Positions 1-11,238 of a DNA stretch of 33,677 bases are shown piece after piece. Made by a program: the position numbers and the translations under genes. Numbering within the stretch: position 1 is the first letter of the stretch; every line of letters begins with the position of its first letter. Origin of the DNA: Prolixibacteraceae bacterium (GTDB lineage: Bacteria > Bacteroidota > Bacteroidia > Bacteroidales > Prolixibacteraceae); NCBI GenBank assembly GCA_016938055.1, contig JAFGVJ010000206.1:1-33677 (forward strand). Direction: 5' to 3'. A model generated the notes under the pieces. The model did no database searches, had not been told where the DNA came from, and saw only the letters and a list, made by a program, of their open reading frames with translations.

Positions 1-1790
<1,790 letters not shown>

Positions 1791-1799
1791 ATTTATTTT

Positions 1800-1824
1800 A
1801 ACACGGTGGCACGGTGACACGGAG
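1800..1824. repeat. 8-bp-period repeat array, left inverted arm flanking the GxxExxY CDS
   Basis: Plus strand AACACGGTGGCACGGTGACACGGAG; three 8-bp units. Two nt from the CDS stop codon. Imperfect inverted copy at 2223-2247. Confidence 0.85.
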
Positions 1825-1826
1825 TT

Positions 1827-2225
1827 TTATTCTATATCTCCGTTAATCCGTCTTCTTATCCCAAATTTAAGCAGTGAAACATTGAAGTTGATCAAATATC
1901 CTAATTTCATACCAGAAAGCTTCAAGGAAGTAACCAGTTGCACTTCGTGAACAGGCATTAACTCTTCAACCGCTTTCAATTCAATCACGATTTTATTTTC
2001 AACTAAAAGGTCAATAATGAATTCTTTGTTTAGATCTTTTCCCCGGTAAAAAATGGGCAACCTAACTTGACGCTGAACATTAAGACCTCTGTTTCTCAAT
2101 TCTTCAATCAGGCATACTTCATAAACTGACTCTAACAATCCAGGGCCAAGTTCCCGATGTACCTGCATAGCAGCATCAATAATCAAGGTTCCTAATTTGT
2201 TATATGTCAATTCTGAATTTTTCAC
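1827..2225 (-). CDS. GxxExxY family protein (small PD-(D/E)XK-like protein)
   Basis: 132 aa with GPGLLESVYEVCL (GxxExxY), ELRNRGL, IDLLVENKIVIELKAVEEL and HEVQLVTSLKLSGMKLGYLINFNV. GTG start lies inside a flanking repeat array. Confidence 0.9.
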   Translation of the reverse strand: MKNSELTYNKLGTLIIDAAMQVHRELGPGLLESVYEVCLIEELRNRGLNVQRQVRLPIFYRGKDLNKEFIIDLLVENKIVIELKAVEELMPVHEVQLVTSLKLSGMKLGYLINFNVSLLKFGIRRRINGDIE

Positions 2226-2247
2226 TGTGTCGCTGTGTCGCTGTGTT
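2223..2247. repeat. 8-bp-period repeat array, right inverted arm flanking the GxxExxY CDS
   Basis: Plus strand CACTGTGTCGCTGTGTCGCTGTGTT. Overlaps the GTG start (2225-2223) of GxxExxY and the last base of the mutA stop codon. Confidence 0.85.
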
Positions 2248-4112
2248 TATTTAATCAATTGTGCTTGATACCCCTTCAATTCTTCCAACAAGTTGCTACG
2301 CACGTGGATGAAGTTTTTGATGCCTTTGGCTTCGAGTTCTTCTTTGCAGGCAGGGCTACCGGCCACAACAAAAATTTCATCGATGAGCATTTCGGCTGCA
2401 GCAGGTGCCAATTCAGCGTACTCGTCGTCGGAGCTGCAAAGCACCACAATGTCGGCACCCAATTCAACAGCATCGGCAACACCATCTTCAACTGTGCTAT
2501 AGCCTTTGCCTTCCTGTACGTCGAAACCGGCTACCGCAAAGAAGTTGCAAGCGAACTGGGCGCGAGCCTTACGCATGTTAAGGTTCCCAACGGTGAGCAT
2601 AAAGGCCAGGGGGCGTTTGTTGTCTTTCGAGTAAACATCGGTGGCATAGCGCAAGGCTTCGAAGGCTTGTGCTCCACGGTAACGGGCCAATGGTTCGGCT
2701 ACGGCATTGTCCGATTTGCGGATTTGTTTGCTGAATATTTCGGCATCCATTTCTTTCTGTAAATACTCGGTAAAGTTGGGGAATTGGTTCGTTCCCAATA
2801 GGTTTTCGCGACGGGTGGCGATGGCCGAATCCATTTTGGCAGCTGTAGCATTCACCTGTGCTTGTACAAAACCTTGTTTGAAAGCAGCCACATAACCGCC
2901 TTTTTCCTGAACATCGAGGAAGAGTTTCCAGGCTTGTTCAGCAATGCTGTCGGTGAGTGTTTCAATATAATAAGAGCCGGCAGCAGGGTCGGCAATTTTA
3001 TCGAGGTGAGCCTCTTCTTTCAGCAGTATTTGTTGGTTGCGGGCAATGCGTTCTGAGAAAGGTGTGCTTTCTTCGTAAACAGCATTGAAAGGCAACACGG
3101 TGAGTGAATCGGTTCCGCCCAACACGGCGCTCATGGCCTCGGTTTGGGTGCGGAGCATGTTCACATACGGATCATAAATCGTTTTATTGAAGATGGTGTT
3201 TTCGCTATGGATGCGCATTTTGGCCGAGCATTCGCATTTTGGGCCGTAAGTTTCAACCACTTTGGCCCAAAGTAAGCGGGCTGCACGGAGTTTGGCAATT
3301 TCCATGAAGTAATTGGCGCCTACACCAAAGTTGAATTTGATGTTGCAAGCTACATCGTCAACGCTTAAGCCAGCTTCAGTCAGTGCCGAAAGGTATTCTG
3401 CACCCATGGCCAACGAGAAACCAAGCTCCTGAACGATAGATGAACCAGCATCGCGGAAATTTTTACCGGTAACGGTAATCGAGCGGAAGTTTTCCAACGA
3501 ATTGGTTTCTTCGATCAGTGCTTTCATTTCGGCATAAACCGCCTCGTCGAAACCACCGTTGCGGGTTAAACTACCCAGTGGGTCAACCTTGACCGAGGCA
3601 ACCACATTGGAGTTAGCACCATAGGTTTTTGTAATGTAGGCGGCCAGTGCTTTGGCATTTGAAACGCTTTTGCAGCAGCTGATCAGGTTAACTTCGATTG
3701 CATCGAGGCAAATGTCCTTGAGCACAATTTCAAGGTCGGCCACGGTAACTTGGGCACAGCCTTTAAAAACTAAACCCAGCGAGTTCACTCCTTTGTTGAG
3801 TACGTCGAGGACTTTTTTGTTGGCTTCTTCGGGTGTGTTTACCTGAATATCCTGACGGATCAACCATGTATTTCCATTGGTTTTGTTTCCCCTAACGTAG
3901 GGGAATTGGCCTGGTAAGCTATTGATAAACTGAATGTTTTCGAGGTCTTCAGCACGATAGTATGGCCTTACGTTGAATCCTTCGTTGGTTTTCCAAACCA
4001 GTACTTTTTCGAAATCCCTTCCTTTCAAATCGGCTTCAATTTGTTGCTGCCAATCAGCACCTGAAACAGGTGGAAATTCATCAAAAAGTGTTTTCCTATT
4101 ATTAACTGTCAT
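2247..4112 (-). CDS. mutA: Methylmalonyl-CoA mutase small subunit
   Basis: 621 aa; FDEFPPVSGADWQQQIEADLKGRDFEKVLVWKTNEGFNVRPYYRAEDL; paired with the large subunit downstream. Confidence 0.95.
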   Translation of the reverse strand: MTVNNRKTLFDEFPPVSGADWQQQIEADLKGRDFEKVLVWKTNEGFNVRPYYRAEDLENIQFINSLPGQFPYVRGNKTNGNTWLIRQDIQVNTPEEANKKVLDVLNKGVNSLGLVFKGCAQVTVADLEIVLKDICLDAIEVNLISCCKSVSNAKALAAYITKTYGANSNVVASVKVDPLGSLTRNGGFDEAVYAEMKALIEETNSLENFRSITVTGKNFRDAGSSIVQELGFSLAMGAEYLSALTEAGLSVDDVACNIKFNFGVGANYFMEIAKLRAARLLWAKVVETYGPKCECSAKMRIHSENTIFNKTIYDPYVNMLRTQTEAMSAVLGGTDSLTVLPFNAVYEESTPFSERIARNQQILLKEEAHLDKIADPAAGSYYIETLTDSIAEQAWKLFLDVQEKGGYVAAFKQGFVQAQVNATAAKMDSAIATRRENLLGTNQFPNFTEYLQKEMDAEIFSKQIRKSDNAVAEPLARYRGAQAFEALRYATDVYSKDNKRPLAFMLTVGNLNMRKARAQFACNFFAVAGFDVQEGKGYSTVEDGVADAVELGADIVVLCSSDDEYAELAPAAAEMLIDEIFVVAGSPACKEELEAKGIKNFIHVRSNLLEELKGYQAQLIK

Positions 4113-7745: not shown

Positions 7746-8126
7746 ATGAAACTTCCTGAAAACCTTCAGTACACCAAAGAACACGAATGGGTAAAAGTTG
7801 ACGGCGATGTGGCCGTTGTAGGCATTACCGAATATGCTCAGGGTGAACTGGGGGATATTGTTTTTGTAGAAATTGAAACAGTTGGAGAAAGCCTCGATAA
7901 AGAAGAAACCTTTGGTACTGTTGAAGCGGTGAAAACAGTGTCTGATTTGTTTATGCCGGTGAGTGGTGAAATTCTGGAAAAGAATGAAGCCCTTGACGAT
8001 GCCCCAGAAACCATCAACAAAGATCCATATGGTGCCGGTTGGATGATCAAGGTGAAAATGAACAATCCTGCCGAGCTGGATGAACTGCTCAGCGCTGCTG
8101 AATACAGTGACCTGGTAGGCGCTTAG
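7746..8126 (+). CDS. gcvH: Glycine cleavage system H protein
   Basis: [42 protein letters not shown]...[22 protein letters not shown] (lipoyl-lysine motif). The ORF-track start at 7659 is probably too early: a TACATTTG -7-like motif at 7709-7716 lies inside the extension. Confidence 0.96.
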
Positions 8127-8127
8127 T

Positions 8128-8181
8128 TCCATCAAAAAATCCTGACAGGTTTTTGAAAACCTGTCAGGATTTTTTGATGGA
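8128..8181. terminator. Long bidirectional hairpin terminator between convergent gcvH and infB
   Basis: Perfect 26-bp inverted repeat TCCATCAAAAAATCCTGACAGGTTTT / AAAACCTGTCAGGATTTTTTGATGGA with a 2-nt centre (8154-8155). Confidence 0.85.
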
Positions 8182-8205
8182 AATATCTGAGCGTAAGCAG
8201 TTGTT

Positions 8206-11200
8206 TTATAATTTCTTGGCTACTTCAACCGTGGTGAAAGATTCAATGAGGTCACCTTCTTTTAAATCATTGAAATTGTTGATATTCATCCCACATTCGT
8301 AACCATTCTTCACTTCCTTCACATCTTCCTTAAAGCGTTTCAGTGATCCAAGGTCGCCGGTATAAATCACAATGCCATCGCGGATCAGGCGTACTTTGTT
8401 GGTCCTGATGATTTTGCCATCGCGAACGATACAACCGGCAATGGTACCTACTTTGGTAATTTTGAACACCTCGCGAATTTCAGCAGTACCTACAATTTCT
8501 TCCTTAATCTCGGGCGACAGCATGCCTTCCATGGCCGAACGGATTTCCTCTATGGCATCGTAAATAATGGAGTACAGGCGGATGTCGATTTGTTCCTGCT
8601 CGGCCAGCTTACGGGCGGCCAGCGAGGGACGCACCTGGAAGCCTATGATAATGGCATCGGAAGCCGAAGCCAGCATCACATCCGATTCGGAAATCTGACC
8701 CACGGCCTTGTGCTTCACATTTACCTGGATTTCTTCGGTAGAGAGTTTGATCAGTGAATCGGAGAGGGCCTCGATGGATCCGTCCACGTCGCCTTTCACA
8801 ATCACATTCAATTCCTGGAAATTACCAATGGCAATGCGTCGGCCAATTTCGTCGAGGGTAATGTGTTTCTGGGTACGCATACCTTGCTCGCGTTGCAGTT
8901 GTTCCCTTTTGTTGGAAATCTGGCGTGCTTCGCGTTCGGTTTCCATCACGTTGAATTTATCGCCGGCCTGGGGTGCTCCGTTGAGGCCAAGGATCATGGC
9001 TGGTTCAGCTGGTTTGGCTTCTTTGATGCGCTGGTTCCGTTCGTTGAACATGGCTTTGATGTGTCCCATGTGCTGTCCGGCAACCAGGATATCGCCTTCG
9101 CGAAGGGTACCATTTTGTACCAGTACGGTGGCTACGTAACCCCTGCCCTTATCGAGCGATGATTCGATGATGGAACCTACGGCCCGTTTGTTGGGATTGG
9201 CTTTTAAGTCGAGCATTTCGGCCTCGAGCAGTACTTTTTCGAGCAATTCTTCAACTCCCTGACCCATTTTGGCTGAGATGTCGTGGCTTTGGTATTTGCC
9301 GCCCCACTCTTCCACCAGATAGTTCATGTTGGCGAGTTTTTCCTTGATGGCTTCGGGGTTAGCACCCGGTTTGTCAATTTTATTGATGGCAAAAACAATG
9401 GGTACACCGGCGGCTGAAGCATGGTTGATGGCTTCGACTGTTTGAGGCATCACATTGTCGTCGGCTGCCACAATGATGATGGCAATGTCGGTTACCTGGG
9501 CACCACGGGCGCGCATGGCCGTAAAGGCTTCGTGACCCGGAGTATCGAGGAAGGTGATCCGGCGCCCGTTTTCGAGCACCACGTTGTAAGCACCAATGTG
9601 CTGGGTAATTCCCCCGGCTTCACCGGCAATCACGTTGGAACTGCGGATATAGTCGAGCAGTGAAGTTTTTCCGTGGTCAACGTGTCCCATCACGGTAACG
9701 ATGGGTGAACGGGATAAGAGGTCTTCTTCTCTGTCTTGTTCTTCTTCAATGGCGTCCATTACTTCGGCGCTGATGAATTCTACTTTATAGCCAAATTCTT
9801 CGGCTACCAGCGACATGGTTTCGGCATCGAGACGTTGGTTGATGGACACAAATAAACCAAGGCTCATACAGCTGGAGATAACCTGGGTCACTGAAACGCC
9901 CATCATGGTAGCCAGTTCGTTCACCGATACAAATTCGGTCACCTGAATACTTTTTTGGATGTTGTGTGCCATTTCCTCGTCGTGTGCCATCTTTTCAGTG
10001 AAGGCAGCTCGTTTTTCACGACGATATTTTGATCCTTTCGATTTACTCTTAGTGGTTAACCGGGCCAGGGTATCTTTGACCTGTTTTTGAACATCGACTT
10101 CAGATACTTCGGGACGGATGATGCGTTTCCGGTTTTTGCCAACCGGGCCTTTCCCTCCAGGTGTAGGTTTTCGGTCGGGGTGTCCACCGCCGGCAGGTCT
10201 GGTGGCGTCCGAAGGCTTGTTTACATCTACCCTTTCCTTTTGAATTCGTTTTCTTTTTCGGCGTTGCTGTTCAGCGCTTTCGGCAGTGGTTTTGGCTGCG
10301 CCTGGCGTCACTTCACCTGTAGGTTTTTTATCACCAAATGCCGGTGTTTCGGGCTTTTTCTTTTGGTTTCTTGATTTACGCTCTTCTTCGCGTTGCTTTT
10401 TCGATTTCTTGGGTGGACGGGTTCGTTGGTTGATGGTATCGAGATCGATTCGGCCCACGACTTTTACTTCGCTTTCAGCTTTTTTCGGAACGTTGGTTTT
10501 GATGTTGTTGTCTTCGATGGCGGTTTTCTGCTGTTCTGCGGCCTGGGGTGTTGGCTTTTGGGCCTCTACGGGTTTTTCAACAGGTTTTTCAACAGGTTTC
10601 TCAGCAGGTTTCTCAACAGGTTTTTCGATCGGTTTTTCAACAGGTTTCTCAGCTGGTTTTTCGATCGGTTTCTCAGCTGAGACAGGAGCCGCCTGCTCAG
10701 GTTGTTTGATGACTTCGGGTTTTTCTGTTTTGGCAGCAGGAGCCTGAGGTTTTTCCTCCTTCACGGGTGGTTCAGGCGTTTTTGGGCTTGGTTTCTTATC
10801 CAGGTCAATCTTTCCAACAATTTTGACTTCTTTACGGGGTGCTTCCACTTTGATTTCAGGGGCTGCTTCACGTTCCCTGAATGAGCTGGATTTTTTAGCA
10901 CTGTTGTCGGTAATTCTCAGTACTTCTGAGTCTTCCTTGTCGTCAACATCGTTGTTGTCATCCTCATCGTTTTGATTGTTCACATCGTTGATGGTGAGCG
11001 TTTCGTTTTTCTGATGACGGTGTGCCCTTAGATTCAGTTTTTCCGACTCCTTTTTCAAATCGATATCGCGACTGTATTCTTTATGTAACAGTTCGTACTG
11101 GTCATCATCGATTTTTGCATTTGGGTTCGGATCAACTTTATGCCCTTTTTTATTCAGATATTCAACCATTGTGGCAATTCCTACATTGAATTCCCTTGCA

Positions 11201-11238
11201 ACTTTACCAAGCCGTTGTGTTCCTTTGCCAGATACCAT
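8206..11238 (-). CDS. infB: Translation initiation factor IF-2
   Basis: 1010 aa; [59 protein letters not shown]; long charged Pro-rich N-terminus. Confidence 0.98.
10571..10678 (-). repeat. 12-bp coding tandem repeat in infB (KPxE units)
   Basis: Nine consecutive 12-bp units of the form GGTTTYTCRNNN, encoding the [16 protein letters not shown]... stretch. Confidence 0.9.

Follow-up and report, generated by a model that had tools for sequence, protein, structure and literature searches.

Several described systems place repeats around, or close to, small genes. REP/BIME palindromes with RAYT transposases (REPtrons) hold an enzyme gene between palindromes, with numerous solo palindromes at other places of the genome, and the cyanobacterial STRR are heptanucleotide tandem arrays. 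The 23S rRNA genes of Coxiella and Leptospira contain intervening sequences (IVS) of ~430 nt that have complementary ends, carry an S23/IVP ORF and are patchily distributed (PMC4990558). Heptanucleotide repeats have been reported as TAACTGA (PMC4679880), as GGGGATT/GGGAATC (PMC4692102) and as Geobacter heptamers (PMC2700814); in the accessible parts of these three papers we found no link between heptamer arrays and a cargo gene, and in those of the first one author speculates that a repeat-binding protein might be the mobile element. GxxExxY is named in two open-access papers, in passing in one of them, and in the accessible parts of the open-access literature we found no paper tying S23 or GxxExxY to tandem arrays and no description of the class of cassette reported here.

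The window analyzed is a 33,677-nt stretch of Prolixibacteraceae DNA in which a 448-bp cassette lies between genes of a core metabolic operon. An earlier note on this DNA had described a GxxExxY gene, packed between inverted arrays at the mutA/mutB junction, as a candidate mobile cassette. The features of the locus are as follows.

1800 to 2247, reverse strand: the whole cassette, a GxxExxY gene with inverted period-8 arrays at the mutA/mutB joint; the orthologous joint of relatives is empty or otherwise filled.
2223 to 2247, reverse strand: 5' array (transcript sense), units ACACAGCG-ACACAGCG-ACACAGTG, holding the GTG start codon.
1827 to 2225, reverse strand: GxxExxY coding sequence, 132 aa, a predicted compact PD-(D/E)XK nuclease by profiles, residues and fold.
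1800 to 1824, reverse strand: 3' array (transcript sense), units CTCCGTGT-CACCGTGC-CACCGTGTT, which repeat the 5' array imperfectly and in inverted orientation.
2247 to 4112, reverse strand: mutA, methylmalonyl-CoA mutase small subunit, the host gene upstream (TIGR00642, 586 bits, slightly below the cut-off of 617).
3 to 1784, reverse strand: mutB, methylmalonyl-CoA mutase large subunit, the host gene downstream, which leaves the window at its edge.

The arrays around the gene were confirmed where the earlier note had placed them. On the forward strand, the arms read AACACGGTGGCACGGTGACACGGAG (1800-1824) and CACTGTGTCGCTGTGTCGCTGTGTT (2223-2247), with three 8-nt units each, and TRF recovered both as period-8 arrays, the left at 1801-1822 (score 37) and the right at 2225-2246 (score 44, 100% match). 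The packing is as tight as had been claimed: the right (5') arm overlaps the mutA stop codon (2247-2249) by that codon's final base, position 2247, and contains the GxxExxY start, while the left (3') arm begins 2 nt past the GxxExxY stop codon. The two arms pair in inverted orientation as an imperfect duplex (-17.8 kcal/mol). Since this pairing, taken at the single locus, was only moderately unusual compared with shuffles (z 3.9, p 0.01), we tested the arms as a population of loci. Nothing in Rfam reached gathering level in window positions 1700-2350. Elsewhere in the window, a near-perfect, terminator-like 30-bp inverted repeat with a 2-nt loop (8124-8185) occupies the gap before an ORF at 8206-11238, and a tandem repeat of 12/36 bp (10571-10677) lies inside that 1010-aa ORF.

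Like the rRNA IVS, cassettes of this kind lie within a transcription unit, enclose a small ORF between ends that are complementary, measure about 430 nt and are patchily distributed; moreover, the alternative cargo found at the window's joint in relatives belongs to the IVS ORF family (PF05635). Unlike the IVS, the window cassette sits between mutA and mutB rather than in an rRNA gene, it encodes GxxExxY, an unrelated predicted nuclease, rather than S23/IVP, and its ends are short tandem arrays. The REP/RAYT systems share with the cassettes a palindrome-flanked enzyme gene and solo palindromes elsewhere, but the cassette cargo has a predicted PD-(D/E)XK fold, not that of a Y1 (HUH) transposase, and the palindrome sequence varies from copy to copy. 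The arms of the alternative cargo resemble STRR-like arrays in being intergenic and heptameric, the latter on cyanobacterial plasmids too, whereas the window arms have period 8 and are paired around a gene. From MITEs and insertion sequences, the cassettes differ in having no terminal inverted repeats common to their copies and in a unit that varies between species at one site. The rRNA IVS, the heptamer arrays and REP/RAYT each have a part, none has the combination, and in each case at least one defining feature that we tested is absent from the cassettes. As far as the open-access literature goes, the cassette anatomy appears to be new.

The window protein belongs to the GxxExxY family, with a full-length match to TIGR04256 of 149 bits (cut-off 35), and it scores 145 bits (cut-off 22) against PF13366 (PDDEXK_3), its sole Pfam match. 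Among 42 homologues, the catalytic residues D72, E82 and K84 are invariant and Q96 and Y100 nearly so (D, E-x-K, Q-xxx-Y). When its AF2 model (pLDDT 95.5) was searched with Foldseek, the best PDB fold was Cas4 SSO0001 (4ic1; TM 0.52-0.56), followed by lambda-exonuclease-like enzymes, at weak E-values (0.007 and up, none below 0.001). By its residues and modeled fold, the window protein thus qualifies as a predicted PD-(D/E)XK nuclease; given a Cas4/lambda-exonuclease-like fold together with the conserved residues, it probably works as a nuclease of the exonuclease branch rather than as a recognized site-specific endonuclease. It is like Cas4 and lambda exonuclease in fold and catalytic residues, and it differs from them in being a single domain of 132 aa and in lying, in the window, outside any CRISPR or recombination operon. 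PADLOC-DB gave no match of this protein to known anti-phage defence proteins.

Most GxxExxY genes proved alike in architecture. In 42 GxxExxY loci from the family of the window and in a cross-phylum set of 76, which included Cyanobacteria, Acidobacteria, Verrucomicrobia, Proteobacteria and archaeal MAGs, we aligned each 5' flank with the reverse-complemented 3' flanks of its own and of other cassettes. The median arm score was 17.25 within vs. 10.0 across cassettes in the family set (p 1.5e-18) and 22 vs. 10.5 in the cross-phylum set (p 1.4e-32). A score of 16 or more was reached by 28/42 family and 60/76 cross-phylum loci, compared to only 8 of 523 ordinary ORFs (1.5%), so that, contrary to one possibility raised by the earlier note, other GxxExxY loci do carry such arms. 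With reversed arms, the same score was seen in 3/42 and 8/76 loci. Since ordinary ORFs and reversed arms both scored low, base composition and a general palindromic tendency of intergenic DNA are excluded; base composition as the source of arm likeness was also rejected by complemented controls. Three-unit CTYYGYG arrays numbered 282 in 60 family genomes, vs. 1 for the pattern read backward.

Within one cassette, the arms are inverted copies of one another, yet they differ from cassette to cassette. The window's genome has three GxxExxY copies, each between short-period arrays of a different unit. The window has the CACGGTG type, a second locus (L001) has CTCTGTG, accompanied by hairpins and long direct repeats, and the third (L003) has the CAGGATT type. 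The suggestion that the arms are terminal repeats in the transposon sense was therefore not supported.

We compared the mutA/mutB joint across 50 related species and found GxxExxY in 5, a four-helix cargo in 14, arrays without cargo in 6 and a short or absent spacer, extending to overlapping ORFs, in 25. GxxExxY is hence not fixed at this joint across the clade, and the 448-bp unit is, as had been proposed, a real cassette, which close relatives either lack at this joint or have replaced by something else. The alternative cargo, which lay beyond the view of the earlier note, is an S23/IVP four-helix-bundle protein (PF05635), unrelated to GxxExxY, that has the same cassette anatomy with its own array period. 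Within the window's genus, the joint holds GxxExxY in G000 and in G002 (where the contig ends just past the gene start) and the four-helix gene in G001, G005 and G007. The state of the joint changed at least 16 times on the mutB tree and at least 15 times on the mutA tree.

This turnover takes place between near-identical flanks. In G041 and G027, mutB DNA is 95-98% identical per 60-bp tile up to the boundary, and the last 300 bp of mutA are 87-97% identical. On trees of only about 120 columns, as are those of GxxExxY, the four-helix genes of these two genomes do not group as a clade (AU p 2e-4), and the two sets of arms are likewise different; vertical four-helix descent was likewise rejected for a pair of genus g15, G021 and G049 (AU p 4.5e-9). 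At a resolution of 60 bp, we saw no flank co-conversion beside mut-joint cassettes; such a trace would be expected of a simple homing tract unless the donor was very close. In another comparison, G036 carries GxxExxY where G057 has a 91-bp array without cargo (mutB flank 94% identical). A remnant of a four-helix start (L068) looks like a decay intermediate. Neither a target-site duplication nor a common target sequence was identified in the joints compared, which were too divergent and lacked a clean recent empty/occupied pair.

The arms of four-helix cassettes are inverted as well (p 1e-18 for 39 family loci; p 7e-14 for 30 further loci across Bacteroidota), and these cassettes also occupy other operon joints, at hisH, hisA, sdhB, ABC-transporter genes and gmd/fcl. 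For the 14 at the mut joint, own arms paired better than swapped arms (permutation p 5e-5). Array grammar depends on the cargo. Four-helix arms have a 7-nt period, with a lag-7 identity of 0.43 vs. 0.25 in control flank and a raised lag 14, while the lag peaks of GxxExxY arms lie at 8-10 nt. The motif YYYGYG occurs 3.9 times per 200 nt in GxxExxY arms, 1.5 times in control and 0.64 times in four-helix arms, and by itself separates the two cargo classes with an AUC of 0.92. Each cargo is present in 0-17 copies per genome, and the two copy numbers correlate across genomes (rho 0.73, uncorrected for phylogeny or genome size).

Of six four-helix genes inspected on cyanobacterial plasmids, most lie between short tandem arrays, four of the six clearly between inverted heptamers. 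On plasmids of Pseudanabaena (L373) and Anabaena (L374), an array-flanked four-helix gene sits between cas6 and cas4, the L374 genes being of type I-D. The 23S rRNA IVP appears in a list of CRISPR-linked genes (PMC10910872), and such placement may explain that listing. On a Nostoc plasmid (L371), the space between ribonucleotide reductase subunit genes holds a GGGAGTA heptamer palindrome with a four-helix gene inside it; this gene runs antisense and is thus an exception to the co-directional placement described below.

Arrays also occur without cargo: about 21 of the 26 CTCTGTG loci examined were solo palindromes. One genome, G018, has neither cargo, yet 400 kb of its sequence contain nine palindromic arrays built on another unit, and short-period palindromic arrays are therefore broader than the two cargo classes. 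The G018 arrays (L266-L277) have longer units, GAATCGATGGA.. and ACAAACCATGG.., in several of 20 sampled 20-kb regions. A generic census of periodic palindromes (2 x 400 kb) gave few hits and was uninformative on GxxExxY arrays; it exposed the G018 array family. In a further genome (G048, contig C1), positions 911936-912697 pack nine three-unit CTTCGTG/CTTTGCG arrays into 760 bp, and 64 such arrays occur genome-wide.

At the gmd/fcl joint, three congeners differ in cargo: one has GxxExxY, and the other two have four-helix genes of separate lineages. Their flanks are 85-88% identical and their cassettes cannot be aligned, and other relatives have a 0-14 bp spacer or palindromes without cargo. 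A frame-damaged GxxExxY-like insert at this joint (L329) looks like decay. The GDP-fucose synthase (fcl) of G044 (L296) contains in-frame array-like peptides, SQKSKVKSQKS...LGPSTLDLRPV, that are absent there in G033 and G055 (L292, L304); as an array palindrome within a coding loop, they would be reminiscent of Rickettsia palindromic elements. Flanking genes were co-directional for 38/39 four-helix and for 32/42 and 53/74 GxxExxY cassettes, compared to 51% of ordinary ORFs, a baseline drawn from two family genomes and hence not cross-phylum.

Across these loci, the class has one anatomy: a 5' array, one small cargo gene and an inverted 3' array, about 430-470 bp in all, set tightly between co-directional genes. 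Its array grammar is specific to the cargo, it turns over at fixed joints with near-identical flanks, and it is faithful to its sites. Together, the recurrence across phyla and the swapping at the same joints point to an undescribed class of mobile DNA. We consider the window locus a member of this widespread class of operon-joint cassettes and a selfish, homing-like DNA element, with a probability of about 0.5. As judged from sequence comparison, exchange would occur at the DNA level, each cassette with its cognate arrays. The cargo protein, here a predicted nuclease of Cas4/lambda-exonuclease fold, would recognize and process its own palindromic arrays, and related cells would receive a copy of the cassette in their alleles of this joint. 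Solo palindromes could then be left behind when the arms, or repeated hairpins (duplicated at L001 and L103), recombine with each other and delete the cargo, while host tolerance would account for the co-directional siting between ORFs.

How far these elements are mobile was the part of the earlier note's proposal that stood only in part: the state turnover at joints favors mobility, while a transposon-like mode is opposed by arms that are not common to copies, by cargo that keeps to its site and by almost no intragenomic spread. The 14 mut-joint four-helix genes form one group in the cargo phylogeny (support 74) and the seven of one ABC joint a separate group, and 11 mut-joint GxxExxY genes from four Bacteroidales families require 2 changes vs. 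10.7 expected. For 0/57 and 3/132 copies, the nearest cargo relative belonged to the copy's own genome, and neither cargo trees nor these counts gave any sign of recent copying between sites. With cargo so faithful to its site and nearest relatives almost never in the same genome, this is not a jumping transposon, and ordinary transposition was rejected, the ends also differing between copies. A reverse transcriptase as common mobilizer was rejected because several cassette-rich genomes have no RVT_1 gene (e.g., G028, with 11 GxxExxY, 8 four-helix and 0 RT). It is thus highly improbable that the cassettes are conventional transposons of the cut-and-paste or copy-and-paste kind, or retroelements that a host reverse transcriptase mobilizes, even though multiple and decaying copies, inverted ends and presence/absence at joints would fit either. 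The site-clustered cargo, seen without recent copying between sites, means that part of the pattern is accounted for by vertical descent with loss, and the cassettes spread either by vertical descent with frequent loss and exchange or by a site-faithful, homing-like route; one trait of homing elements, the same element at the same site across species with the site unoccupied in others, is present.

The main rival to a selfish, homing-like element is a regulatory role, in which old resident cassettes would serve as operon-specific modules whose cargo and arrays control how the host operon is translated or processed, with species differences arising by loss or divergence. It draws on the clustering of cargo by site, the co-directional placement within operons, joints where cassettes are vertical over a genus (L288/L289, L287/L290) and the regulatory role proposed for heptamer arrays elsewhere, in the accessible parts of PMC4679880. 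We nonetheless hold it doubtful, as one joint can be empty, cargo-less or filled with either cargo among congeners, the AU tests oppose vertical four-helix descent in two congeneric pairs, copies per genome vary widely for each cargo, and several GxxExxY copies in G007 are broken by stops. An RNA-level intervening sequence, with arms that pair in the polycistronic mRNA, an insert excised by RNase III and a stem maintained by selection, would be suggested by S23/IVP being the ORF of rRNA intervening sequences, whose 28-bp terminal stem is cut by RNase III (PMC4990558), and by arm duplexes that are more stable within than between cassettes. We regard it as unlikely: the duplexes are imperfect, as in the window, and G-U mismatches between arms were in no excess over A-C when cross-cassette pairs served as the reference (odds 0.90, p 0.20), although selection on sense-strand RNA pairing would produce such an excess. 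Such pairing as a selected feature, in which the cassettes would resemble the rRNA IVS, is thus unsupported by this wobble test; an apparent A-C over G-U asymmetry was shown by the cross-cassette control pairs to be compositional. Less likely still, the arrays would be host repeats of the STRR or REP type, independent of any cargo, and would mark tolerated intergenic space in which irrelevant small genes accumulate. The many arrays without cargo, the arrays of G018 and, in the accessible parts of PMC4692102 and PMC2700814, heptamer arrays known as free-standing repeats agree with this, but cargo class predicts array period and motif, arms co-diverge in site-matched cassettes, and several relatives have no array at the joint at all.

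On a broader view, the class would comprise phylum-spanning minimal mobile elements, each one small protein with its own short-period inverted arrays; at least two unrelated proteins would compete for core-operon joints, and in many cases the heptamer arrays that stand alone in bacteria, and their intergenic palindromes, would be the cargo-less remains or partners of such elements, a view whose chances we put a little below even. GxxExxY and S23/IVP proteins occur commonly, often in several copies, and have no function assigned to them, and heptamer arrays between genes have so far gone unexplained. A protein-specific array period, together with swapping at the same joints, offers one testable hypothesis for all three puzzles.
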